Below are positions 520 to 63,167 of a stretch of 64,000 bases of DNA, piece after piece (within the stretch, counting starts at the first letter, position 1; each line of letters begins with the position of its first letter). The translations under genes and the position numbers were made by a program. The stretch covers positions 19,758,742-19,822,741 of the forward strand of contig NC_089730.1 of NCBI RefSeq assembly GCF_035083965.1, given 5' to 3'. Source of the DNA: Branchiostoma lanceolatum (Eukaryota > Chordata > Leptocardii > Amphioxiformes > Branchiostomatidae). The notes beneath the pieces are model-generated. The model was not told where the DNA came from and searched no databases. It saw only the letters and a program-made list of their open reading frames with translations.

Positions 520-3500
520 ATGTCTCCAGCGAAGTTTGTGGCGTTTCTTCCCATGTTCTGGCTGTGTCTGGGCGTTGCCGATGGTCTGGCCACTGGCCTG
601 TCCTGTCTCAATGAACAGGGAAAGGCCGTGAACTGGTGAGTCTTGTATATAGAATTTAGGCTTTATAGTAAATAAAGTAATACCATTCCGGTTGAATTTT
701 TTTATTGAAGATCTTTAAAAAGATCTTGAATCGGGCATTTAAAAGTATCAACTGACATGTACAGTTGAACCTGATTTGTGATTCCAAACTATATGGTAGC
801 AAACGTAAGTGGTCTTGTTATACACATGTTGTAGTTAGTCAAACCTGTCCGGGCAACCACCTGTCCTCAGCAATCATTTTTCCTCAGTCCCTTGGATGCT
901 CGCCTAATCCAGATTTGACTCTATGTAGTCAAACCTGGATTCAGCCACCATTCAAGGAACTTACTAGTAGGAAAAATGCAGCTAAGGACAGGTGGTTTGC
1001 TCGGGACAGGGTGGGGTTAACTCAAAATGGACAGGACAGTTTCAATGTGGCTTGTGACTGGAGTTGGTTGCCTGTGCCAGGCTTGACTGTATTTAAAAAA
1101 TGATATACCTTCACATTTCCAGGTTTATTGCGTACAAGATCCCGAAGATTGCAGAGAGTCCGCACAAGTTGGTGCAGGAAGGCCTGGGACATGTGTACAT
1201 GGATGTTAACACACAGGTGGGGTTACTGTGATTATTCCCGTTCTTCTTTCAAGTTTCATAATCTGTTGTAACATTCACACTGCTAGTTCCTTTATCTACT
1301 TGTGATGGGTTGGTCTCTTCAGCCAAAATAACATAACAGTACAAATATGTAGCCTTTTTCCTGCATGTAGGTTGCTTGCTAAAAGTTTCACACTCTTTTC
1401 TCTAAACGGGGACGGGTTAACATTATATTTCTTCTTTCTTATAAAATATAATTGATTCTTGAGCATAGCTGAGGTCAGCTCCCATTCTGAAAGATTTGAT
1501 ATCCTAACAAAGGTTGATATGAGTGTTCCCTTTTTGAATTTTTTCACTTTTTTTGTTATTGTGTGTTTTGTTTCACTTCCCATTGCAACTGGACCTTTAA
1601 TTTCGTATTCACTTCACATTTGCAGAAGTAAGTAGTGTGCATGACTTTTTCAATATTTTTCACAATCACTATTTTGCAACTGTTGCATTAATTCTCTAGC
1701 CCAATAAATCATCATGATGCATACAATTTTAGAATAATGAATCTTTGCTGGACCTGATTTTTTGTTCCCTTTGCAGAAGTGGAGTGATGTCTCCCCAGAA
1801 TCCCTGAACAACACCGACAACGCTATCGGCCGTACCTTACAGCAGATGTACAGCAGAGGAAGCAGACAGGTGTGTTATGATGTTTCAGACAAATGGTCTG
1901 TGTGTTAGTACAATGTACATGTAGTCCCATAGTTGAAATTCCTCAGAGACCATAGTATAAGTGACACATTCCATACTTTTGCCAATGTTTTTGCATAGCC
2001 AACCATAATATATAACCATAATATATTATGTACCTCTTGCCCCTTTTTAGTGACCATCAAAATTCAAATCTGAAGCCATATGATTAGCCCAAAGAGTACA
2101 GCCATAGTACTGTACATGGTGTGGAGGGGTATGTTATGTGGCTGTTACTGTAACGGTGTTAGTGTTACATCTCTGTTCTGTCCATTACCCAATCCAGGAT
2201 ATTGCCTATGTTCTATATGATGATGAGTTGCCAGACAGTATGTTAGCCGCCACCTCTACCACCAGGGGCCACACTAAAGGTTTGTGTTACTATTCACCCA
2301 TTCCATTTTGTTCTGATCACAATGTAACCTTTGAAAATAAGAACAAGTAAAGATTATGTCTAAAAAAAAGAAAAACTTTGAAAATAAAGGACATCTCTAC
2401 TGATTTCTAGATCTGGCACTTATCTGGTTGCCAAAGAGTGAATTTGATTTTTGGGCATACTTTTTCCTAATTTTTGATAGCTTATATAAAACAATTGTGA
2501 CCATGTGCACCCTGCAACATAATACAAATTACAATATGGCATACATCTATCGGTACACTGTCTTCTGTGTTTGCAGGTGTGTTAGTGTTTGATAAGAGTG
2601 GCGGGTACTGGCTGGTCCACAGCACACCAAAGTTCCCCAACCCTGCTAAGGACTGCTACTCCTGGCCTGAAAACGCCGTCATCTATGGACAGAGCTTCCT
2701 CTGTATCAGCTTTCAGTACAAGGAATTTGAAAAGATTGGTATGTTTCTCTAATCTTCTTTTTTATTGTTTTTTGGTTGAGTTTGCAAGATCATCACTTCT
2801 GCCTCTAACTTTTTTTACTGGTTCATTTACTTTAAAAAATGTCAATAATATTTGTTTGTACTTGATGAGTAAATCTCGCAACTGTTACAAATGTTAACCA
2901 CCTTGGAATAATCAATATTGCTAATTTCAGCTTTTTTTAAATTTTAGCAATGGCTTGTCTGTCTTCTTCTTGCTTAGTGCTGTGCAGTGTACAAAGTGGC
3001 GAATTTGTAGTGGCCTTAAAAGCAGTCAAATGCATGTACTATGTTTCTCTGCTTAGTCATTCACTATACTGTAGCATTTGTAACCCATTTATAGCCAAAG
3101 GAATGACATTTAATTTAATATCTAATGATAATTAATGTTAATAAGACCACTGTAATTCCAGGACAACAGCTCCTGTACACCTGGCCCAGGGTGTACGACA
3201 GCCAGCTCCCAGCATCCTTTGCTCCTGACTTCCCCTCCCTGTCCAAGGTGCTGAAAGGTCAGCACGTGGGGTCGTCGCCATGGAACCACACCCAGGTGCT
3301 CACCTCAAGGGGCAAACAGCAGTTCCACAGCTTTGTCAAGTTTGGGACCTTCAATGCAGGTGTGCAGTTTTACCCTAAAGCCATGTTAACCTCATTTTAT
3401 TAACGGAATCTTTTGGACACCCCAAATCTGATGAGAGAGTGCAAATACAAGAAATTATTGACATACATTGATGTCATTTTGATATCATTTTGTAGTAGTA

Positions 3501-5160: not shown

Positions 5161-6497
5161 ACTAAAGTTAGAATTACAAATCACTAGATAACAACTCTTA
5201 CAGACTGAGATATAAACCACTTAGTCCAGGTAAACTTCCTGTTGCAAAAGAAAGGGACATAATATTATTATTTAATACTAACTTATATTTAGCTTGCAAA
5301 GGATACTGCACTGGTAGTGAAATACATGAATAAAGCTGGGTTTTGTGAAGTAGTCAATATGCAGAAATATATACTTTGTGTGTCTTGGATAAAAGTGAAA
5401 AACTGGCTGGACCAGTGTTTTTATGTGAGCATCTTCTGAGTTAGAGTTTTATACTGCTATAAATGCATTTGTATTTTGCTGTATTATGTTGTATGTATTG
5501 AGACCAGTGCTAGTGCTGTAGACCCTCTACCAGAGGACACAAACAGCCAAAGATACTGTACTGTATTGTGTTGCATTCAAGCAACTTTGGTTACATGTTA
5601 GATAAAAGTATATAACCCTCCAACTTACAATTTGTGTATTGTTAGATATTCTTCCTGCTTATTGGAATATACTAATTGCCAAGTGATTCTTGACATAAAC
5701 AGCTCTTGTGTATATCTGCCCTGGTAAAGCAAGTACTTAACTTCATGTAACTCAAATGACAGCATCCACAATGTATCAAGACCACTGAATAAATTTCAGT
5801 CTCTAGAGGTTGGAAAGACTTTAAATTGCATTATATCTAGTGAATAAAATGTTGCTAGCATGACCAAAGATATTTCCTCCTTGGGTAAATTTATTGCTAA
5901 AATTGTCAAGGACGTTGCCAGACTAAGTATGTTTGAACCGTGGTTAATAATTGTTAGATATACATGCTAATGGTATTTAGAATTATCGTTTTGAACTGTG
6001 TCTTCCCCTCTAAAGCTAACAGTGGTAGAAGTTTTAGCTGATTTGACATATCAATCAGTGAATATTGAATTTCCTTAGTTTTACCGACATTAGTTTTGGT
6101 ATAGAATTTTCCAATGAAGACCGGACTTCAATGACCCGGACTACATGTACATTTACTTGTCAAACAACATGCAGACTTTAGACTTTTCTCTGTCGTTCTA
6201 GAGTCTGAAAGGTTACCAATGGTGTAACTAAGGTTTGCTGTACTCTGTGTTAGTGGAGATATATCATAACGTGTTAAGTTGAAAGGCACGGGGCGAGTAG
6301 TACATGTACGGTTTCCTGGCTCCCGGGAATCGAACCCTGGGTCGCCAGCAGATAAACCCAACGCACTTATATATAGGTTACTACGCCTAAGGGTCCGGAC
6401 CAGTTAGAGTGGTTAGTAAGTGGCGCCTGAACCACGTTCACTAGTACTGTTACATAGTATTAGGAATTTGGTGAATGTACAGTTAGTGGTGTCTCAG
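5024..6497. other. Intergenic: DNase II 3' UTR and PIPOX upstream region
   Basis: AT-rich, with polyadenylation signals for the upstream gene between 5329 and 5850. A tRNA-derived SINE-like repeat occupies about 6117-6392. I see no gene. Confidence 0.6.
6117..6392 (-). repeat. tRNA-derived SINE-like repeat
   Basis: On the minus strand the segment from about 6362 reads as a tRNA-like head with a perfect pol III B box (GGTTCGATTCC), preceded by an A-box-like segment, followed by an unrelated body. It lies just upstream of the PIPOX gene, and its outer edge is about 100 bp from the proposed ATG. Confidence 0.5.
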
Positions 6498-9400
6498 ATG
6501 GCGGAGCCGGGCGCAGTTTGGGACTGTATTGTTGTTGGAGGCGGGGTGATCGGATCTGCCACCGCACTACAGCTAGCGGGGAGAGGCGTCAGGACTCTGA
6601 TGTTAGAACAGGTAAGGATGGTCTGGCTGTCAAGTGTTTGTCCTATCCTGGGTACGGTCTGGTTGAGAAGTGTGAGTAGGTACGCAGTAACATGCACGTA
6701 GCGCCCCGGGTTGTGTATCAACCTAAATCTGATAATGTCACCGCCGCGCTATAACAACAGTTAACGTAAATAGGCGTCGGGAATCTGCTGTTAGAACAGG
6801 TAACGTTAAGTGTGGTCTGGTTGGGAAGTGTTTTTCCTATCCAATTGTTGACGGTTGGTATAGGTACGCAGCATCCTGCACGTAGCACCTCGGGTTGTTT
6901 ATCAGCCTAAATCAGATAATACCACCTCCTCCACCGCGCTACAACAACAGCTAGCGGTGAGAGGCGTCAGGCTGAGCTTATTATAAACAGGTACAGTCTG
7001 TTTGAGAAGTGTCTGTCCTCTCTTCTTGGGTAATGGTTTACTGTAGGTACGCAACATCCTGCACGTACGCAACACCCTGCACGTAGCATCTCAGGTTATT
7101 TATCAACCTAAACCAGATAATGTCTGTCGGAGGGAGGCGTCGGGACTGCCCTGATTGAACTGGTTATTATGGTCTGGTTAAGAAGTGTTTGTCTCATGCT
7201 GGACAATGATTAACTGTAGATACGCTACAACCTGCACGTAGCACCTCGAGTTATTCATCAACTTAAATCAGATAATGTCACCCAACCGCCAAGGAGGTTG
7301 AATCGATCGTATCTTAAGTGTTGTTTGATCGGCCGTTTTGTTTGTTTTTACAATAAACCAGTCGTTTGGTCGGCCATTAGTTTACGTGTTTGTTGCGAAC
7401 GTGTCCAAAATTGTGAGAAAGCGTGTTTTCAGTCACGTGATGAATATGACAAAAAGTATCGTCCTACATTTTGAAAGTCATGACAGATACTCTGGAGGGC
7501 AATAAGAAATGCTAACATCGTCCGTGCCCTTTGTCTGACTGCATGTAGTTTTTTCATCTTTGCTTAATATATTTACAAATATATATATACATAGAGAGAG
7601 AGAGATAGAGAGAGAGGGAGGGAGAGAGAGACTCGGAGGATAGATATAGATATAAATGTGTAGATATAGATATAGATATTGATAGATCTTTTTTTTGTCC
7701 GTCAATGGTTTCATTAGGTTGCTATCGGCATACAATTGAGTATCACAGTTTTCTTGTAAACAACTATGTTCCTCTTTCTACTTACTAACACTTCGGCAGC
7801 CTATGTATATGCTGCCTCCTTTTTCTTAATTTCTTCTTGTTTTGCTATTAAGCTCCTCTTTTAAGAATCATAAGCATGTTTCAATCAGGTGCAAAGCTAT
7901 CTATTAGACTCATACATTGAAGGGAACACCTTTTATTTGTGTTCCAGTTCGCCCTCCCCCACGCCAGAGGCAGCTCGGTGGGCGGTACCCGGGTGATCCG
8001 CCGTGCGTACCCGCAGCAGCTCGCCTACATGGCCGACATCGTCACGCAGTCCCTCAACATGTGGGAACGCCTGGAGGAGATCACCGGCGTCAAGCTGCTG
8101 GTGTGAGTCTATGAACAATGTTTCAAATTCATAATCTTCACGTTCTGAAACGGTTTCCAATCAAAGGTAGAATTGTTACTTTCCAAGCAGAGGTTCGTCG
8201 TGTTTTAGGCGTTTTTGTCGGGCTTTCTGTTTTTGTCCTAGGCCTGTTTGCCAAAGAAAAGGCTGGACAAGATAGAGATCCCGACAAAGTCGCCTAAAAA
8301 CGCCCAAAAAGCCGAACCTCTGTTTAATGGAGAGTATAAATGTGTGTCATCAAACAACGTAGGTTTCCTAAAACGTCACGATCTATATTACACTAATACT
8401 GAAGGACTAACCTTTGCACTAAACTAAAAGCTATCTGTAACTTTAAAAGGTCACATTTCTTATAAACCATTACGTTCCTTACTACATACTAAATACTTGA
8501 TATGTGTATGTTGGAGTCCGAAGCCGTTTGTGGTAGTGGCCGATAAGACCGTGGAAGGTCTCCGCTCCAAAGCCCGTACCCTGCAGACCGTGGGCCTGCC
8601 GCACAGACTGGCGGGCGGACCTGCTCTCCGGACCGACTACCCCGCGCTACGGTACCCGGCCGAGTTCACCGGGCTCGTGGACGAGCAGGAGGCACAGATT
8701 AGAGCAGATAAAGCAATCAGGTGTTTTCTGGTAGAAAAGTTACTTCTTATTTCACATAATCATTCATTTTGCAGGTTTTATTAGAAAAAAATAGAGAGGA
8801 ATCAACGATGACTTCACGTACATGTTCATCACATGCTACCATCGCTCCCTTCCCTCCCCAGAAAGTGTTCTTACAGAAGGGCGGTGTCCTCCGGGATGGG
8901 GAGAAAGTGGAGGCCATCACACATGGTGACGTCATCACGCTGCACACGTCACGTGGTACATATCGCACCCGCCGATTGGTTCTCACCTGCGGCCCCTGGG
9001 CTGGTGACGTTCTATCCGGGATAGGGTTACATCCTCCACTGCAGGCAAATCGCACATTCCTTTTTTTATCAAATGGTCTGAAAAACAAAAGAAGTAAGAT
9101 AGCTTAAACATATTATATATGCTTGATTACAGTTTCAAAGATTGGCTTGTCATCCAACACAGGAAAATTGAAATTGATGCTTGGCCAACTTTTTCGTCCA
9201 CATGTGTTCAGCCTAGACTTCATAATGACGCCGAAAATAGTTACTCCAGCAACTGGATAGAATTTTGAGACAGCCAGACGTTCTTCATAATGACTTTCAT
9301 ATGTAATTGTTAGGCCGTTCATACTTCCTTCATCTACCCATGAACTGACGGGAAAACTATGTGGTGTACTTGGGAGGCATTCCTCTATGTAGGTGAACTA

Positions 9401-29118: not shown

Positions 29119-31679
29119 ATGTCTGCTGAGGGGGGAGGGGCGGAGGCCAAGTTGGCAGGTACGGATAAAGTTTTTTCTCACGCTCTGACAGCTGCTTTCT
29201 TGCAAATTGATTTCTGTTGTTCAGTTAACTACACAAGACAGTGTAGGTATTTATTGAACACGAGGTGTTATATGTAAGGTATGCTGTCTGCTAGCAAATG
29301 TTGGGTGAAACCACGGACAGTCAGAAAACGTTATGATCGTGCAACACAACATCTGCTTGGAGATTACAAAGCTTTGTCCAACCAGAAAAAGAACCTTTGA
29401 TAGATTATGATTGCACATACGCATTATGAAATTGAATTCGTTTACATATCATCTAAAACAGTCACTACAAATGACGGTACATATGTACATAATGCACTGG
29501 ACCTCACTTGCAATCAGGAGCCAAGAGGTTTGTGATATGATACAGATGATTAAACATTATATTTAACACTTGTTTTGTCCATATTCTCTGTAGCCATTCC
29601 TGACGTTGAGATTGACCCCGACGGAAAGTTCAAGTACATCCTGATCCGTTGCCATGGTCCCGGTGATGTCAGCAAGGACATCGTCAGGGGGTTTGCCTGG
29701 GCAGAGTTCCACGGTAGATACGCTTTCATTTAATCATTCGCAATGTTCATGCCTGCATGTAGAGTACAGCATAGTCAGTATGGCATATTACTATGAAAAT
29801 TTGTAGATCATTTAGTAGTATAAATCTATACATGTTTTCCACTTAATTTTGAGGTTGCATGGCTTCAGACATACTAGTAGACAAAGTGTACCAGCCTGAA
29901 CTTCTAACCATTGTTTTCATCTTTTCTACGCTATAAGATCATTAAGAGCTTTGTGCTTGTCTTTATGTTGAACATTGCATACTTAATTTGTAGGAAAATA
30001 GTAACTGTTTTGTAAGTGCCCTGCCTATATAGGTAAGTAGAACACTGTCATTATGCTATGATCTGCCTAGGGTAGAACGCTATGCCCTAATATACAATTA
30101 AAATACAATTCTTGTCGACTGCTGAAACAGCTGTGCTTGAAGAGCTTGTATTGTAATAAATAATCCCGTTCTCCAGCTGATATCTATGACAGAGTTGCCC
30201 CTGGGATTGAGGCTCTAGGGTTTGACTGTGAGTGTATAGGCGGCGGCAGAATACAGCATAGCAGGAGTCAGAGGAACATCCTAGTGTTTGGGTACTCCAT
30301 GGTATGTTTTGTTTTATGTACTTTCTGTGTCTGTGGGAGATGATACTAGTAGTGCACAGGCTTATTTGAAAGGAACGACTTAAATTCTAAAAGCTTTCTT
30401 GTCATTCAAGAAAAAACGTGGGAAAGCCTTAACAGTTCTCCTGAAAACTCAAGATTGCAAAAACATTAGCAGGACTTTTCAAGTATTTTCTTCTACTGAA
30501 AAACATGTCAAAATGAAGTGCCCCTCAATAATCCATCCAAAAGCCACAAAGTGTAGAGGAAAAAGGGGCATAGAAAAAAAGTCAAGTAGTACCTTTTTGT
30601 AATGTTTAAACTTTAATTAGACTTTAAATTTTACATATTTCTGAATTCTGTATACACAACATCATGGTACATTGTGTGCTATCTACCATTCATTTCACAC
30701 AGACAGAGAAACACTTGTCACTGTGTAGTCCTTGAGCAGTAGTTCCACATTGTTTGTAACCACTTGGCTTTCAGACCACATCTACGGTAAGGTGAAGCCT
30801 GTGCTCGATGAGCTGCAGATCACGTCCGAGGTGCTAGGGGGCGGCAAGATCACCCACGAGAGCGCAGAGAAGAAAATCCATGTCTATGGAAAATCCACTG
30901 TTTGTCATGTGGGGATTGGGGAATGGGTTTGGAGCCTGGGAAACATTAACAGTGACATTATTGGCTGTGAACCTGACTAAAGCATGCTTCCAGCAGCCCT
31001 CCTCTGGTAAGGCCCCTGTAGGAAGAGTACTATAGAGCTTTAGACAATGAGCTTTTGTGTTACATAGACTAAGCTGTGTAGCACAAGGAAGAAAACATTT
31101 GTTTTCCCACTTCCAATGTTTCCCTTGTTCCAGGCCTTGCTAAAGCTGTGTGTTTATTTTTAAATTCAGGGACCAGATTTTGTATCACAATATGTGTCAT
31201 ACATGTGATTTTTTGTGTGCACAATATACCATTTTGTATTTTACACTGGTATCCATAGCCTATCACTTTTGTTTGACGTGTATTGAACATGAATGCTTTT
31301 CAGCACTTTTCTCAAATATTGTCTGCTGTCTACTAACCCGATGTTGTTGAGAATGTTTTCTATTTCATTTTTGGAAGACATGGTATCAAAAACGTCTGTC
31401 TGCCAAGAAGTCAATATTTGGCTAAGCAGTATACTAATCTGCAGTGCATACATACAACAGTACAGTACTACAGTGTAAAATAGCAATGTGTTTAACACCT
31501 TTGGAAGTGTATCTTTATAGAGTTTTGCACAGATTTACAACTATTATGTCAGTTTTAACAACTTCTTTTCTGTGTTTCTCCAGGGTTTTGGTCAGGCTGA
31601 CCACTCCATCACAGTGGAGAAACTCAAGAAGCAATTCCCTGACTACTCAAGCATCACCTTCAACAACGAGGGCTACTAG
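29119..31679 (+). CDS. PHPT1: 14 kDa phosphohistidine phosphatase, four exons (form A)
   Basis: Removes phosphate from phosphohistidine in proteins; a small cytosolic Janus-family enzyme. Exons: 29119-29158, 29594-29713, 30177-30301 (3A), 31584-31679; sum gives 126 residues (human 125). The catalytic His is residue 53 (WAEFH/ADIYD), the same number as in human, and Lys21 in DGKFKY also matches. GGGRIQH and [14 protein letters not shown] form the rest of the active-site loop, and the end PDYSS...NNEGY is typical. A second version of exon 3 lies downstream (30775-30899). AATAAA at 32330-32335 is a plausible polyadenylation signal. The gene is divergent from the GTPase and convergent with the GH76 gene. 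Confidence 0.94.
30775..30899 (+). CDS. PHPT1: PHPT1 alternative exon 3B
   Basis: A second exon-3 homologue in the intron between exon 3A and exon 4. It is exactly 125 nt, as is 3A. It has the same entry phase (1) and exit phase (0), an acceptor in TTGGCTTTCAG and a weak donor GTTTGT. It encodes [14 protein letters not shown]...[21 protein letters not shown], closer to human PHPT1 (GGG..S/TH...KKIHVYG) than 3A is in its second half. Using both exons would shift the frame, so choice between them is expected to be exclusive. Both Cys of 3A (CEC) are absent, and Tyr-Ser-Met is replaced by Lys-Ser-Thr. Confidence 0.75.
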
Positions 31680-32757
31680 AGACTTAAGAAGTGACCTCTC
31701 TCCTTAAAGAGTTGCTCTGAAAGGTTTCCTTTCCTTACAAGGGTTCGAGTCTTAAAGAGTTGTTCTGCAGAGAATTCTCATCTTGTGCATAGGACATGAG
31801 ACTTGAAATGCTTATTGCCTAAGGCAAGTGCTGAGGCATGTGTAGCAAAAACCTCTGGTTCGAAAGGACTTGTGATCATTGTTACAGAACTACACTGTCG
31901 TTTTCTGTATAATTTTGATGACTGTGAAAAGCTAAGTTTCTTGTGTTGCAATCTTCAGGATATGTTTTGTCTAAAACAGCTGTTCATCAGATTTTGTCAG
32001 AAGGAAAGTTATAAGTCATGTTTAACTTCTATAGCCTCTCAGAGGCCTGTAGTGACAAAAATATAATGACTGTTTGCAATAGGTCTGTAGATGCAAACGT
32101 GCACTGTCGTCATAATTGTTACTTGTGTCGTCATTCTCAGCATATGTTTGTCTAAAACAGCTGTTCATCAGACTTGGTCAGAAGGAAAGTTATAAGTCAT
32201 GTTAAACTTCTATAGCCACAGAGGTCTGTTGTGCTAGTGACAAATAATGACTGTTTGCAACAGTTCAGTTATACTGAGTGTGGCTGAAGGCTGTAGTATA
32301 ATGTGTTGGTGTCAAGTCTTGACTTCTAAAATAAACGACAAAGCGACGAGCAATTGTGGAAAAAATTTCCTGTATGAACATCATTTTATTGCCATGAATA
32401 TCTTATCAGACTTGTAGGTCAAACTGTAGAAAAATTAAGTTCTAGAGATGCAACCTGAAGAAAATTTACCTGGCTCCAAGGAAGCTAGACAAGTAAATTT
32501 TCTTTACTTTGTATCACAAGAACTTTATTTTCCTTTCCTTAGGCCAGTCCATTTAATATGTTGGTTCTCAGAAAAATTAAAGAACTATGGACTTTATGTT
32601 GTTTCAGAAAAATATCCTTATCCTATCATTTCAAGTAGACACTTACAAGAAGACTCACAGCAGAGGAGTTACCATAGAGTCCATTGCTCACAGGTAAATT
32701 GTAGGTTGTACATGTATCACACGAACATTATTTTTCCTGCTACTTTACTGCCCTGTG
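31680..32757. other. Convergent 3' UTRs of PHPT1 and the GH76 gene, with duplicated 3' UTR block
   Basis: A block at about 31975-32080 (GTTATAAGTCATGTTTAACT, ATAATGACTGTTTGCAA) is repeated in tandem at about 32155-32262 with slight divergence. The PHPT1 AATAAA follows at 32330. No other gene. Confidence 0.75.
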
Positions 32758-35700
32758 TCACGTGCAGACCCCCTTGATGCACTTCTGCGTGGTCTCGCAG
32801 CAGGTGTAGTACTGCTGGTACTCGCAGCACGGCTCTCCCGCGGGGCAGGGCTTGTCCGCGCAGGTCAGGTGGCGGGGCGGGGGAACGGGCGGGTCGTACG
32901 TGCACCCCGCCCCGCTACAGGTCGTCCCCGGCTCGATGTTAGCCACGAGAAGGTCGAACACCTCTGCCTGCACCTAGAAACAGAAAACCACTAATCTTGA
33001 TATCTAACAAACTTCCGCAAGATAGCATGTGTATAGTCCAGTGGTTAGCAACCCTGCCCCTGGACCAGGAATTTGTGCACCTAGAAACACAGAATTCGAA
33101 ATGAGCCGGGATAATTGCTCACCTAGGCTTGACGCTTACACTTTCCATATATGCAAATGCTAGGTGTGACAGGTCGTTCAGTGTACTTAAACCAGCTGCT
33201 GCTGCGCCGCGTGTCTGCTAGCTGGTGTGCTATGCCAAAGAGCGGCTTTACCGGCTATGTAGATGAAAATATAGAGATAGGTTGATGTCATTTTGCTGTT
33301 ACTTGTCCACTTCCTCAACCACAGTAGACATGCTTTTTGACCCAAATCGACTCAAGTTGATATCTCCCATGGATCTTGACATGCCGCGTGGCAGAGATCC
33401 TAAGACAGTTTACTTGCCACTTCTCTAGTCCTTATTGCAAAATTAACGTTAAACTTAGATACCGCTATGATATGATTTACTATGGACATTATTTACCATT
33501 GGGTTGGAGATGTTAAAAGGTCCTCTCCAGTCCAATGTGAAGACAGGTCCAGTTTTGTTGTTCAGAGAAGGTCCGTCCCGATAGGTGATGTTACATGCGC
33601 TCTTCTCGGGCCAGCAGATGGCATTGGCAATCACGGACCTGTTGCATGGGGGTATACGGCATTTCAGATAACGTTATGTAATGTCCAATAAATAACGATC
33701 TCTTGCCGAGTCTCCATACGAAGTAAGTGTACAAAACACTTGACTGTAGTTGGAGATACGGCACTCGGAAATACAGTCACATAAAAGTTGGCCTACATTG
33801 TACAAAGTGGCACACTATACAAAATTTTATTGCAAAAACCACGACGTCCTAAAGGAAGGTTCTGTTGCATAATTCCTCAAAGCAGTAATTCCATGATAAT
33901 GCAAAATTACCTTTAGGCATTATCATCAGTACACATATTGTCTACATTTTCATAGCTCAAAACATGTTCCTCATTGAAAGATAAGAATAACTGACTTGAT
34001 GTTTCCGTCCAGCCAATCACTGTAGGCCCTCCTGGTGTCGTCATCAGACACGTCCATGAGGTAGCGCAGGTAGCGGACAAAGAGGCCTGTTTAATCGGGG
34101 AACAGAAATTTATTTATCAACTTATCTATCTAATGATCTCTTTGAGATATGATAGATATGTACCAAGGCAGATCGCAAACCTCGCTGGCAACATAAAGAA
34201 CTGGAAGCTACTTACAGTCGCCTTCATTGCAGCCGACCAATGATGAATGGTGATGAGATGTTTAGGAAAGGCGCGATTGATAAGCTAGCCTTAATGCATT
34301 GTACTTCTACTAAGTTAGCATTAAAGTTCATCTGTGTTGGCAGTTAAGATACTGCATAGTGAAAACTGTTTTCGACACAAAAATTAGCGCATCGAAATTT
34401 CGACAGTATAACTACCGTCTTCCTGAAATTTCAAGTGTCTAATAAGTAGATCATGTGACCCTACGGACATCTGACGTCAGCAGTTGTCATAAGTGCTGTG
34501 AAGTTTATTCCGCTCGCCGTCTGTTGTAGTCTCTACCAGACTAACTACGCCGGCTATGTAATATGGAGAATATTTGCCGGGGGACTTTGGCCGTAGAGGG
34601 TGTCATTTGCAGGCGTAGGGTTGCAAATTTGACCCTCTCTCCGTAGCCGATTCCCTTCATACAATTGACTCTATTTGGCCAATTTCTACTATTTTCAAAG
34701 CGACCCGTGGAGAATGGTAGAGCCTACGTCCGTTGGGTTATTGTACCTTTGTAAACATATTCATCTTCGTCACATCCCTCCGGCCAGCACCGTTCCACCA
34801 GAACCCCTCCCCGTGAGCTGTAGAAGATGGTGGCCTGCGCGACCCGATGGGCGAGCGTCAGGTAGCTGCTGTCGTTCAGAATATGGTACATCTCCACGAG
34901 ACCCCCCACTAGCACCCCGCTGTTGAAGGTCTTGTTGAAGTCGCGGTTTCCGGTACAGTCTTTCGTGGCTATGTTCGACACCTGTAGATGACGCATTATA
35001 AGTTCTAATCAGTGCAATTTGCTTCATATGGAGTATCAATATCAAACTCTATGTGCACAATATGGAACAATGAGGAATCGCTGAGTCAGACGCTCCTCCC
35101 CATCTAGATATCTTTCGCAACTTGTAGAGGTGAATATGCACCTGTATTGCCCTCTTTCACATTGTAACCAATTTAGATAGACAATAAAACAATAAATGTA
35201 TGGAAAAAAACAATGAGGAAGTGATACATTTTTGACAGTTGGCTGTGATGAGATGCTGTTGTCTGCCGTTTGGTCTCGAGGGATTTTGATACTTGGGTAG
35301 AAATGCTACTTCTGTTATTCCCCTACCTCTTGCTTCATTATCTACCATTCATTGTGCATCATTATCCAGACAAACATTTAAACGCCATACAAACGCTACT
35401 CGTCAACGTCCTGTATAATAATTCCTGTACATCACTGCTGCTAAGCTAAGGTTTTGGAAAATAGCATAGATAAAAACGACTGACCTGGAACGTATCCGGG
35501 TCAATTAGTCCGTTCTTCTGGATGTACTTCCAGGTCATCGTCATGTTTCTTAGGTATGACGTGTCGTTGGTGTGTCTGTCTCCCAGATTAAGAAAACAAA
35601 GTCTCAGGTTTTAATTGAACGTTTCTATTCGTGAGTCAGCAGAATTCATTTCGTTCTTCATATATCTTACATGTAATGTATGTGAATCAAAGTTAAACTG

Positions 35701-39448: not shown

Positions 39449-50707
<11,259 letters not shown>

Positions 50708-55970: not shown

Positions 55971-56063
55971 TATACAAACATACAAACAAATGAATAAACA
56001 AACAAGTTAGAAATCTAAGACATTCCATTTTCTAATTGTTCTGTTCCAGTTTGACTTGCAGAT

Positions 56064-58403
56064 ATGGAGGAGAGAAGCACAGTTGTCGTGCATCTACTGG
56101 ACACCTCGTCACCTGTCGTTATAGTGTCCTACTCTTCTCCCACTGAAGATCCTGTGAACGAGATTAACAGCAGAGAGTGTCATGTAACAGACAAGGGGAG
56201 GCAACAGGACAAAGAAGGAGTGAGTCCATGTAAGGAAACCATCACGATAGGCTCTACTCAGCCTGCGAGCAGGGAAAACAGCAGATCTAGATCTAGAGTG
56301 GACCAGACAACAGGCAATGTCAGGCTGCAGCACAAGATAAAAGTGACTCCATTTAAGAAAACCTACACTGTGGACTCTACCCAGCCTTTAGGCAGAATAG
56401 ATGGCAGAGAGGGCCAGACAACAGAGACAGGAAGGCAGCAGCACAAGATAAGAGTGAGTCCATTTAAGAAAACCTACACTGTAGATGCTACCCAGCCTGA
56501 TAGCCAGGCAGACAGCAGATCTAGAGAGGACCAGACAACAGACTCAAGAAGGCAGCAGCACAAGGAAAAGCAGAGTCGTGAGGAAACAGTCAGTGTAGAC
56601 TCTACCCAGCGTGACCACGTTTGTTTCGAGTGCGGATACAGAACAAGACATCTTGCAATCCTTTCTGTACACATGAGAAGGCATACAGGTGAATATCTTT
56701 ACAGCTGTGAAACGTCCGAAAACATTGATTATAATGACGCCAACAGCAGTGAGGACCAGACAACAGACACAGGAAGGCAGCAGGACAAGGAAAAGGAGAG
56801 TCCATGTGAGGAAACCTGCAGTGTAGGCTCTACACAGCCTGTAGAAAGGCGAGATAGCAGAAAGGACCAGGCAACAGACACAACAAGGCAGCAGGAAAAG
56901 GAAAGGCAAAGTCGTGAGGAAACCCACCGTAAAGTCTCTACCCAGCGTGACCATGTTTGTTTCGAGTGCGGATACAGCACGAGTCGTCTTGCAAACCTTT
57001 CTGTACACATGAGAAGTCATACAGGTGAAAACCCTTACAGTTGTGAACTGTCTGAAAAATATGATGACGATGAGGCCAACTGCGAAATGTCTGAAAAAAT
57101 TGACGACAGTAAGGCCAACAGCGACCAAGGGACAGACACAGAATGGCAGCAGGAGGATGAGGATGGAAGTTCGAGCGATGAAACTTTTTCCGAGAACTCT
57201 GTCCAGCCTGAAGAGAAACATAGAGGACGTCAAGACAAGAATGATTCACCACAGCCTAGTACTAGTAGGAAAACTACAGCCATAGAAGACTACCGTTGCA
57301 CACAGTGCAGCTATTCCACAAGAAACGAAAAAATGTTGAAACCACACATGCAGAAACATGACAGGGACAAGCTTAAGCCCCTCATGTGCGACAAGTGTGG
57401 TTACAGAACTGCTTTTAGATGGTCTCTAGACCAACACATGCGTCGACACACCGGCGATAAACCCTACTTGTGTGAAGATTGTGGGTACAGAACAGCTCAG
57501 AAGTCTCGGTTGGTTATACACAAGAGAAGCCATACAGGCGAGAAACCCTACAAATGTGACCAGTGTGACTTCGCCGCCGTAACAAAATGCCGTCTAGATG
57601 ACCACATGGTGAAACACACTGGTGAAAAACGTCTAGCGTGTAAAGAGTGCACATACAGGACTGCTCGTAAGTCTCAGCTGGTGGTTCACATGAGGACACA
57701 TACCGGTGAGAAGCCATACAAATGTGACTGGTGCAACTATTCTGCTACAGGGAAAGGCACTTTAGATAGGCACATGGTTAAACACACCGGTGTAAAACCC
57801 TTCAAATGTGACTTATGTGACTATTCTGCTGCCCAGAAATTCAGGCTAAATCAACACATGACGAAACACACTAGTACTGGAACGAGACAACTAGTACTGG
57901 CGAGAGACCCTACAAATACTGGTACTACAAAGACTAGTACTGGTGAGAGACCCTACAAATGTGACCAGTGTGACTATTCTGCCACCGAGAAAAGGTATCT
58001 AAACCAACACAAGCTGAAGCACAGTAGTGAAAAACCCTTCATGTGTGAGGAGTGCGGTTACACAACACGTTACAAGCATCAACTCTCAGTTCACAAGAGA
58101 AAACACACGGGAGAAAAACGCTACAAATGCGACCTTTGTGACTATTCCGGTGCTCGGAAACAGAACTTAGACCAACACATGGCCAAGCACACCGGTGAGA
58201 AACCCTTCGTATGCGGGAAGTGTGGGTACAGGACAGCTGACAAGTATTACCTAAGAAAGCATGAGGCCAAAAAACATAGCATTAAACGACAAGATGCTAA
58301 GCAAGAGAAGAAAAACAAGAGTGCCTTTCAGCGCTTGCCTACAGCACAGGAAACCCTTGAAGCTTGTCAGATTATTGTGGAACCTCATGAGCCGCCAATG
58401 TGA
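56064..58403 (+). CDS. C2H2 zinc-finger protein, 779 aa, 13 fingers
   Basis: Probable nuclear DNA-binding regulator. One long coding exon; a splice acceptor just before the ATG (ag at 56048 or 56060) implies a 5' UTR exon upstream. Residues about 30-400 consist of degenerate repeats (DQTTDTGRQQDKEKESP, ETCSVGSTQP) interrupted by two lone fingers at about 186 and 299. Then comes one finger at about 412 and an array of ten from about 442 to 736, joined by TGEKPYKC-type linkers. The seventh linker is expanded by a local duplication (57867-57950). There is no KRAB, BTB or SCAN domain. Polyadenylation signal AATAAA at 59053-59058. Target unknown; an orthologue name is not supportable. Confidence 0.9.
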   Translation: MEERSTVVVHLLDTSSPVVIVSYSSPTEDPVNEINSRECHVTDKGRQQDKEGVSPCKETITIGSTQPASRENSRSRSRVDQTTGNVRLQHKIKVTPFKKTYTVDSTQPLGRIDGREGQTTETGRQQHKIRVSPFKKTYTVDATQPDSQADSRSREDQTTDSRRQQHKEKQSREETVSVDSTQRDHVCFECGYRTRHLAILSVHMRRHTGEYLYSCETSENIDYNDANSSEDQTTDTGRQQDKEKESPCEETCSVGSTQPVERRDSRKDQATDTTRQQEKERQSREETHRKVSTQRDHVCFECGYSTSRLANLSVHMRSHTGENPYSCELSEKYDDDEANCEMSEKIDDSKANSDQGTDTEWQQEDEDGSSSDETFSENSVQPEEKHRGRQDKNDSPQPSTSRKTTAIEDYRCTQCSYSTRNEKMLKPHMQKHDRDKLKPLMCDKCGYRTAFRWSLDQHMRRHTGDKPYLCEDCGYRTAQKSRLVIHKRSHTGEKPYKCDQCDFAAVTKCRLDDHMVKHTGEKRLACKECTYRTARKSQLVVHMRTHTGEKPYKCDWCNYSATGKGTLDRHMVKHTGVKPFKCDLCDYSAAQKFRLNQHMTKHTSTGTRQLVLARDPTNTGTTKTSTGERPYKCDQCDYSATEKRYLNQHKLKHSSEKPFMCEECGYTTRYKHQLSVHKRKHTGEKRYKCDLCDYSGARKQNLDQHMAKHTGEKPFVCGKCGYRTADKYYLRKHEAKKHSIKRQDAKQEKKNKSAFQRLPTAQETLEACQIIVEPHEPPM

Positions 58404-60549: not shown

Positions 60550-62808
60550 TCACTTCTTAATCTTTCCACTGTGTCTGAGTTTGTGTCGGTCCAGATTGTA
60601 TTTCCGTGCAGCAGAATAGTCGCACTTGTCACATTTGTACGGTTTCTCACCTGTATGTGTTGCCATATGTCTCTTCAGAAAATTTCTTACAGCCGTCCTA
60701 TAGTCACACTCCCCACACATGTATGGCTTCTCTCCACTGTGTTTAACCATATGTCGGTCTAAATTACCTTTATGTGCAGCAGAATAGTCACACTGGTCAC
60801 ATTTGTAGGGCTTCTCGCCTGTATGTGTTCTCATGTGTATAGCTAGCTTAGCCTGGCTAGCAATCCTGTACCCGCACTGATTACACGTGCAGCCTTTCTC
60901 AGCAGTGTGTTTAACCATGTGTTGGACCAAACAGTTTTTCCAAGCTGACGAGAAGTTACACTGATCACACTTGAACGGTTTTCCACCACTGTGCTTTGTC
61001 ATGTGTGAGATCAGTTGAGACTTTTCAGCCGCCATGAAATCGCACTCTTCACAGAAGAAGCGTTTTACACCACTGTGTAACAACACATGTCGGTTTAAGC
61101 ATTCTTTCCGTGCGGCAGAATAGTCGCACTGGTCACATTTGTAGGGCTTCTCTCCTGTATGTCTCCTTTTATGTGTGTTTAGTTGAGACTTTGTAGCTGT
61201 CTTGAACCCGCACTCCTTACACACATGGGGTTTTGCACCAGAGTGCGTGAGCATGTGTCGATTTAGATTGCTTCCTCGTTTGAAAGAAAGGCTGCACTCT
61301 TTACATTTGTACGGTTTCTCGCCCGAATGATTTCTCATGTGAACAGTTAGAGTAGATCTGTAAGCCGTCCTGTAGCCGCATACTTCACACATGTACACAG
61401 ACTTGTTGCTCTCTGGCCTCTCACCAGTGTGTCTTCGCACGTGTCGATCTAAGTTGTATTTCCGTGCAGCAGAATAGTCGCACTTGTCACATTTGTACGG
61501 TTTCTCACCCGTATGTGTTGCCATATGTCTTTTCAGAAAATTTCTTACAGCCGTCCTATAACCACACTCGCCACACATGTATGGCTTTTCTCCGCCGTGT
61601 TGGACCATGTGTCGGTCTAAATTACCTTTATGTGCAGCAGAAAAGTCGCACTGGTCACATTTGTAGGGCTTTTCGCCTGTATGTATTCTCATGTGTATAG
61701 CTAGCTTAGCCTTGCTAGCAATCCTGTACCCGCACTGATTACACGTGAAGCCTTTCTCAGCAGTGTGTTTAACCATGTGTTGGACCAAACTGTTTTTCCA
61801 AGCTGACGAGAAGTTACACTGATCACACTTGAACGGTTTTCCACCACTGTGCTTTGTCATGTGTGATATCAACTGAGACTTTTGAGCCGCCATGAAATCG
61901 CACTCTTCACAGAAGAAACGTTTTACACCACTGTGCAACACCACGTGTCGGTTTAAGCATTCTTTCCGTGCAGCGGAATAGTCGCACTGGTCGCATTTGT
62001 AGGGCTTCTCTCCTGTATGTCTCCTTTTATGTGTGTTTAGTTGAGACTTTGTAGCTGTCTTGAACCCACACTCCTCACACACATGGGGTTTTTCACCAGA
62101 GTGTGTGAGAACGTGTCGTTTGAGATTGCTTGCTTGTTTGAAAGTATAGTTACACTGCGTGCACTTGTAGGGTTTATCACCCGAATGGCCTCTCATGTGG
62201 ACAGTTAGGGTAGACCTTTCACTCGCTCTGTACCCGCATACGTCACACATGAACAAGAGCACCTTTCTCACTGGTTGCTCAGAGTGCGTAAGCTTGTGTC
62301 GGTCTAAGTTGTATTTCCGTGCAGCAGAATAGTCGCACTGATCACATTTGTGCGTTTTTTCATGTGTATGTTTTGCAATAATATGTCTCTTCAGCCAAGA
62401 TCTGTCCGTCGTCTTATAACCACAATCAGCACACATAAATGGCTTCTCCCCACTGTGCAGAAACAAGTGACGGTTTAAACTGGCTTTGTGTGCAGCAGAA
62501 TAGTCGCACTGGTCACATCTGTAGGGTTTTTCTCCGGTATGTGTTCGCTTATGTTGAGCAAAGATTCCTCTTCTTGCCGTCCTGTATCCGCACTCTTCAC
62601 ATTCGTAGGCGTTCTCACCTGAATGCTTTACCATGTGTTGTTTCAGACTCCTTTTCCACGAAAATGAGGAATCACACTGATCGCACTTGTAAGATTTTTC
62701 GTCCCTATGCTTGCTAATATGCTTGACCAATGTACCCTTGTTAGTCGCCCCATAACCGCACTCTTCGCACATGTAGCGTTTCTTACGAGTTTGTTTAGAC
62801 GATGACAT
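60550..62808 (-). CDS. C2H2 zinc-finger protein, 752 aa, 26 fingers
   Basis: Almost entirely zinc fingers, probable DNA-binding regulator. Single exon from ATG 62808 to TGA 60552-60550. I count 26 C2H2 fingers in TGEKPYKC-type arrays alternating CGYRTA- and CDYSAA-type units. Fingers 7-16 are duplicated as fingers 17-26, a block of about 286 codons; the corresponding DNA repeats at about 858 bp offset with few differences. The N-terminal leader is only about 10 residues (MSSSKQTRKKRYM), with no KRAB, BTB or SCAN domain. It faces the 779-residue zinc-finger gene across about 2.1 kb, suggesting local paralogues. Target unknown. Confidence 0.92.
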   Translation of the reverse strand: MSSSKQTRKKRYMCEECGYGATNKGTLVKHISKHRDEKSYKCDQCDSSFSWKRSLKQHMVKHSGENAYECEECGYRTARRGIFAQHKRTHTGEKPYRCDQCDYSAAHKASLNRHLFLHSGEKPFMCADCGYKTTDRSWLKRHIIAKHTHEKTHKCDQCDYSAARKYNLDRHKLTHSEQPVRKVLLFMCDVCGYRASERSTLTVHMRGHSGDKPYKCTQCNYTFKQASNLKRHVLTHSGEKPHVCEECGFKTATKSQLNTHKRRHTGEKPYKCDQCDYSAARKECLNRHVVLHSGVKRFFCEECDFMAAQKSQLISHMTKHSGGKPFKCDQCNFSSAWKNSLVQHMVKHTAEKGFTCNQCGYRIASKAKLAIHMRIHTGEKPYKCDQCDFSAAHKGNLDRHMVQHGGEKPYMCGECGYRTAVRNFLKRHMATHTGEKPYKCDKCDYSAARKYNLDRHVRRHTGERPESNKSVYMCEVCGYRTAYRSTLTVHMRNHSGEKPYKCKECSLSFKRGSNLNRHMLTHSGAKPHVCKECGFKTATKSQLNTHKRRHTGEKPYKCDQCDYSAARKECLNRHVLLHSGVKRFFCEECDFMAAEKSQLISHMTKHSGGKPFKCDQCNFSSAWKNCLVQHMVKHTAEKGCTCNQCGYRIASQAKLAIHMRTHTGEKPYKCDQCDYSAAHKGNLDRHMVKHSGEKPYMCGECDYRTAVRNFLKRHMATHTGEKPYKCDKCDYSAARKYNLDRHKLRHSGKIKK

Positions 62809-63167
62809 GTTCCTTTCCTGTTACTGTCGTTGGGCCAGTAGATGCGTTACTAAGATTTTATACAGTTACGATGGGCAGAGTTTATATAGCGAGGATCTTT
62901 GCTTTCCGTGTTCCAACTTCACCTTCTGTGTTCTTGTGTCTGCTTCTCCTTGATGCTTGTTTTTCCCGGGATGAGTGTTCGGCGTCTCCACGACATCTAG
63001 GAAGCCCACAGGTTGTCTCGACAGGCAGTCCGTGCCTTGTAAGGAATCGCGCTAATTGAAAACACAGATGACCAGAATTATTACTACGTAAACACACCGG
63101 TAGCCTGGATGCCAGACCCAGCGTGAGGCGATACAGACCACTTCGGCCGGAAGAGCAACATATCTAT

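Follow-up and report, generated by a model that had tools for sequence, protein, structure and literature searches.

The window analysed here, a 64-kb stretch of amphioxus DNA taken at its full length, contains a complete PHPT1-like gene on the + strand, running from an ATG at 29119 to a TAG stop that ends exon 4. The coding part of exon 1 (29119-29158, +) was defined by its reading frame and closes with the donor CAG/GTACGG (score 4.09; the slash marks the splice junction). Exon 2 (29594-29713, +; donor ACG/GTAGAT, score -0.11) was placed by tblastn and by PDB alignment to human PHPT1, and its 3' end consists of the catalytic His53 and one further base, giving phase 1. Downstream lie exon 3A (30177-30301, +), which corresponds to human residues 54-95, and exon 3B (30775-30899, +), a homologous alternative to 3A. 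A 473-nt intron separates the two, and 3B sits inside the 1,282-nt interval separating 3A from exon 4. Exon 4 (31584-31679, +) encodes GFGQADH...NNEGY and the stop codon, and its acceptor falls in the 99.7th percentile. Isoform A (with 3A) and isoform B (with 3B) are both open, end at the same stop and are each 126 aa long, matching human PHPT1 (2ai6) at E = 1.9e-40 and 9.1e-35, respectively. Both belong to the PHPT1/Janus-Ocnus family, with PF05005 (Janus/Ocnus) scores of 134.2 bits for A and 126.1 bits for B against a curated cut-off of 23 bits; the product of a longer version of 3B, described below, also exceeds this cut-off at 91.1 bits. His53 and Ser94 are invariant in the alignment of isoforms A and B with human PHPT1.

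An AATAAA at 32330-32335 (+) is the probable PHPT1 poly(A) signal. Within the presumed 3' UTR, a 71-nt stretch is repeated with 96% identity (31966-32036 and 32147-32217, 181-nt spacing), and the 26-nt stretch that follows the repeat unit is likewise duplicated at the 181-nt spacing (88%). Shortly past the presumed poly(A) signal, an inverted repeat (32428-32534) has 48-nt arms with 79% complementarity and 11 nt between them. Elsewhere in the window, + strand open reading frames match DNase II (3119-3400, E 2.8e-12) and an FAD-dependent oxidoreductase (6420-6698, E 6.6e-07). On the - strand, one frame matches glycosyl hydrolase family 76 (34727-35008, E 5.6e-09), a family found mainly in bacteria and fungi, and two others match the fibrinogen C-terminal domain (39452-39739 and 40116-40340, E 8.6e-26 and 8.3e-15). 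Two long C2H2 zinc-finger frames, 782 and 756 aa from stop to stop, occupy 56055-58400 (+) and 60553-62820 (-). A run of 100 N at 186-285 is probably an assembly gap.

The first-pass annotation had described 3A and 3B as 125-nt exons with shared phases and AG/GT borders, and we found every one of these details to be correct. Both enter in phase 1, taking one base (G) from exon 2, and both exit in phase 0. They are neighbouring internal exons flanked by exons 2 and 4, similar in length, compatible in splice dinucleotides and frame, homologous in their peptides and unproductive when included together, all of which are marks of a mutually exclusive pair. The resemblance of 3B to 3A exceeds what chance would give. 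A tblastn search of the window with isoform A recovered 3B at E = 7.6e-06, and the best match outside the gene had E = 0.71. Among 17,679 open 42-codon frames from both strands of the window, 3B is the best match to 3A after 3A itself (15 identities, next 10), and against human exon 3 it is second to 3A (20 identities, next 11). The two peptides agree at 15/42 residues, and they share 23/42 (3A) and 20/42 (3B) with human PHPT1. Thirteen of the 42 positions are common to all three sequences, ten to human and 3A only, seven to human and 3B only, and two to 3A and 3B only. Taken alone, the exon peptides score 55.1 (human), 47.5 (3A) and 40.2 (3B) bits with the Pfam Ocnus profile PF05005, 3A covering profile positions 45-86 and 3B positions 46-86. 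The suggestion that 3B resembles the human protein more closely in GGGKITH...KKIHVYG holds for KKIHVYG, which is identical to human; over the whole exon, however, 3A is the closer by both identities and bits, and in the GGGKI stretch Arg78 is changed in 3B but kept in 3A.

The duplication does not look recent, because a direct-repeat search, which misses copies less than ~65% alike, found no ungapped flank similarity of at least 20 nt between the two copies. The small number of positions common to 3A and 3B alone likewise makes them look unlike a recent pair. By codon position, identity between 3A and 3B is 29, 24 and 13 of 42 at the first, second and third positions (first and second versus third, Fisher p = 0.0012). 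Third positions are nearly saturated, with a Jukes-Cantor distance of 1.90 (bootstrap 2.5% bound 0.98), whereas first and second positions are not. G or C occupies the third position in 31/42 codons of 3B and 23/42 of 3A, in a gene whose introns have a G+C of 0.35-0.38; the value for 3B has a binomial probability of 7e-7 at 0.36. Against 3A, 3B has accumulated no indels, and it contains no stops. In drift simulations run with an assumed 0.12 indels per substitution and mutation free of base bias, the copies remaining intact (open frame, no indel, AG/GT) amounted to 11% at 0.1 substitutions per site, ~1% at 0.2 and 0/4000 at ~0.5, the last value placing half of the 0.98 bound on 3B. On the strength of these simulations, the codon-position identities and GC3, selection has acted on 3B as coding sequence through most of its history, which speaks for past constraint and is not direct proof for today. 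Not all of that constraint need date from time spent in the PHPT1 gene.

We scored splice sites with vertebrate matrices. The acceptors of the two exons are alike, at the 93.4th (3A) and 95.5th (3B) percentiles of 3,906 AGs. The donors are not. Relative to the same 4,171 + strand GTs in the window, the 3A donor scores 3.64 (98.8th percentile) and the 3B donor -4.13 (59.7th percentile). The GT border claimed for 3B is thus present, but it belongs to a weak donor, ACT/GTTTGT, with T at -1, +3 and +4. Neither 3A nor 3B has a strict YTNAY branch-site motif in the region lying 60 to 12 nt before it, whereas exon 4 has one upstream. Other candidate donors lie close by. One at 30908 (CAT/GTGGGG, score 1.21) would extend 3B in frame by three codons, Val-Cys-His (30900-30908, +), preserving phase and giving a 129-aa product. 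Another at 31006 (CTG/GTAAGG, score 5.43) would produce a long form of 3B (30900-31006, +) that runs through an in-frame TAA at 30978-30980. Two donor-like sites within 3B, at 30786 (5.06) and 30791 (3.33), are also stronger than its own, and use of 30791 would remove the greater part of the segment without shifting the frame and leave a 90-aa product. These two sites make the splicing of 3B less certain still. Given the poor donor at 30899 and the strong one at 31006 past an in-frame stop, 3B may give an in-frame isoform (30899 or 30908), give a truncated isoform (31006) or have been recently silenced.

Reading 3B as a longer exon of 232 nt, from 30775 to 31006 and carrying a stop of its own (30978-30980), accounts for the donor at 31006, which scores highest of those listed from 30760 to 31300, and for local base composition. 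At 0.495, the G+C of 30900-31006 is higher than in any of the 1520 overlapping windows of equal length (107 nt) taken from the rest of the gene's introns (maximum 0.449), and it drops to 0.355 past 31006. The resulting 121-aa protein would keep the part up to human residue 95 and replace the exon-4 part with a 26-aa tail, and it could be unstable, act in regulation or serve to lower PHPT1 output. Its transcript would probably be stable, since the stop lies 26 nt from the junction and should escape decay. The composition signal is, however, less distinctive when the 82-nt stretch up to the TAA is taken by itself (G+C 0.451, reached by 16/1620 intron windows), and G+C is also somewhat raised upstream of 3B (0.40-0.47 in 60-nt windows, of which the last overlaps 3B). 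Homology to 3A and to human extends to 30899, exactly where phase is kept; 3B retains Ser94, which makes most sense together with Ala96 and His102 of exon 4; and the 26-aa tail has no Pfam match at E <=1. We regard the long exon as unlikely, though as a reading to be taken seriously. A further outcome, use as an alternative terminal exon carrying a separate poly(A) site, was rejected, as neither AATAAA nor ATTAAA occurs between 30899 and 31584.

The weak donor beside an intact coding part is also the pattern expected if splicing were lost first. 3B might then be a long-standing alternative whose donor decayed from a GTATGT-like sequence to GTTTGT, leaving 3A to do all the work. A short time since such a loss is possible, given that 11% of simulated copies are intact at 0.1 substitutions per site, but the intact frame, acceptor and GC3 require the loss to be recent, as only ~1% survive at 0.2. 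We consider this silencing rather improbable. The 15/42 likeness of 3A to 3B, lower than that of either to human (23 and 20) and with two positions common to the pair alone, suggests that the two lineages may have split early, and it would suit an origin of 3B in a separate PHPT1-like gene, either as a copied exon or as a nested paralogue exon in the intron, constrained elsewhere earlier. Against such an origin, tblastn in six frames found no further PHPT1 exon in the 64-kb window, and 3B is collinear with exons 2 and 4, lying between them in matching orientation and phase. This is the least probable of the readings, and a very unlikely one. In its form as a separate nested gene we rejected it, as the window holds no extra exon 1, 2 or 4. 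Scans for relatives gave 30 pattern matches among viral contigs (isoform A as query) and 128 among prokaryote genome contigs (three-row alignment), none confirmed, both in collections not meant for animals.

Reading frame bears directly on whether the two exons can be used together. As the first-pass annotation had argued, joining 3A to 3B breaks the frame: the product ends ...GYSMTTSTVR, and its stop precedes the last junction by 104 nt, far enough for nonsense-mediated decay (NMD) to be expected. Skipping both exons brings a stop after GFWSG and a truncated protein. Because of this frame conflict on one side and truncation on the other, a full protein results only from one of 3A and 3B at a time. 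The 473-nt intron between them is too long for steric exclusion. We also considered RNA pairing as the enforcer and rejected it, as Markov-resampled sequence pairs formed ungapped helices at least as good as the best ones joining the three introns in 52, 23 and 56 cases out of 100. For human genes, a comparison with Drosophila gives frame incompatibility leading to NMD for 20/28 (71%) genes with validated human mutually exclusive exons (PMC5740500). The claim of mutually exclusive use stands in part, for a duplicate kept under coding constraint whose protein-coding use is exclusive by frame; that 3B is spliced in and ends at 30899 is a prediction, weakened by the poor donor there and by the strong one 107 nt further on, which would give a truncated protein. 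3B is best read as an alternative exon that excludes 3A from any one protein product, and from the sequence we lean, without great confidence, towards mutually exclusive use of 3A and 3B, with the 3B donor as the weak point.

The explanation we favour, if by no wide measure, is that exon 3 of PHPT1 was duplicated in tandem long ago and that the copy, 3B, is still kept as an alternative, so that one gene would supply two full-length histidine phosphatases differing over human residues 54-95. Exclusivity would be set by the reading frame, double inclusion giving an early stop and decay, and skipping a truncation. Having the better donor, 3A would be the default exon. With an ordinary acceptor and a weak donor at 30899, or the one at 30908 with three added residues, 3B would need an activating factor and might therefore be used in some tissue or stage only. 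Form B would still be expected to bind phosphate, since His53 (from exon 2) and Ser94 are kept, and it might prefer other substrates while lacking the oxidation and phosphorylation sites of form A.

The residues that distinguish the forms can be placed on the known active site. In human numbering, 3A keeps Ala54, Cys71, Cys73, Arg78, Tyr93, Ser94 and Met95, including the CEC cysteines and the YSM tripeptide, as had been noted, and it has Ile and Phe in place of Met64 and Cys69. The 3B peptide reads Asp54, Leu64, Ile69, Ser71, Val73, Lys78, Lys93, Ser94 and Thr95, and contains no Cys or Met anywhere; use of donor 30908 would restore one Cys to form B. The human substrate-pocket residues Arg78, Tyr93 and Met95, all kept in isoform A, are replaced in isoform B by Lys, Lys and Thr. 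According to PMC4817053, the human enzyme binds substrate through Glu51, Tyr52, His53, Tyr93 and Met95, and phosphate through the NH of His53, Ala54 and Ala96 and the OH of Ser94, with Lys21 and Arg78 contributing anchoring or transition-state stabilisation; the roles of His53 and Ser94 are also covered in PMC11277029. Oxidation by H2O2 falls mainly on Met95 and to some extent on Met64, and on Cys71 at 1 mM (PMC4817053), to which PMC11277029 adds Cys69; among phosphorylated residues, the latter gives greatest prominence to Tyr93 and Tyr116. Form B would thus keep the catalytic base and Ser94, differ at most of the pocket residues named for this segment, and lose the oxidation sites and Tyr93. 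The proposal that the two forms differ around the phosphate-binding loop and in redox-active Cys fits these published residues, and its functional effect is a prediction from them.

A redox switch acting as simple loss of function was rejected, as H2O2 oxidation, mainly at Met95, is reported to have no negative effect on human PHPT1 function (PMC4817053). In another assay, reducing agents increased PHPT1 activity (reviewed in PMC11277029). Given these results, a redox-resistant isoform is only one possibility. We suggest, tentatively, that exon choice might toggle between a regulated form, with oxidisable Cys71, Cys73 and Met95 and phosphorylatable Tyr93, and a stripped form whose rebuilt pocket (Asp54, Lys78, Lys93, Thr95) would serve other substrates or oxidative conditions, a split perhaps older than the animal's lineage. 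If natural, an isoform without the oxidation-prone residues and Tyr93, and identical in its remainder, would offer a ready-made comparison for the role of those residues. Should 3B not be spliced, it would still illustrate how an exon can lose its donor while its coding sequence survives.

In Drosophila, the same family diversified by whole-gene duplication, as janus A, janus B and ocnus, and not through an exon pair. A splice variant of human PHPT1 is reportedly degraded by the proteasome. Searching titles and the starts of abstracts, we came across no account of such an exon pair in the PHPT1 family or in amphioxus. Both amphioxus isoforms align over nearly their full length with human PHPT1, the 14 kDa phosphohistidine phosphatase (PDB 2ai6, 2nmm, 2hw4), with His53 and Ser94 kept, whereas isoform B differs at Ala54, Cys71, Cys73, Arg78, Tyr93 and Met95. 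Alternative splicing is shared with the human gene, whose alternative transcripts (uc004cjq/NM_014172) have been measured (PMC5249009); the part of that paper available to us describes no homologous mutually exclusive exon pair. With mutually exclusive exons that arose by tandem exon duplication, as characterized in Pillmann et al. 2011 (PMC3228551) and Hatje et al. 2017 (PMC5740500), the candidate pair shares equal length, GT/AG borders, phases, homology and a premature stop on double inclusion. It differs in the weak donor of 3B with a stronger one downstream. Junction reads from each exon bridging the other are a further criterion for a mutually exclusive pair (PMC5740500). Such exons are well known, with over 855 in human according to the same source; the splicing arrangement proposed for amphioxus PHPT1 is of a known kind, and the surprise it holds is moderate.
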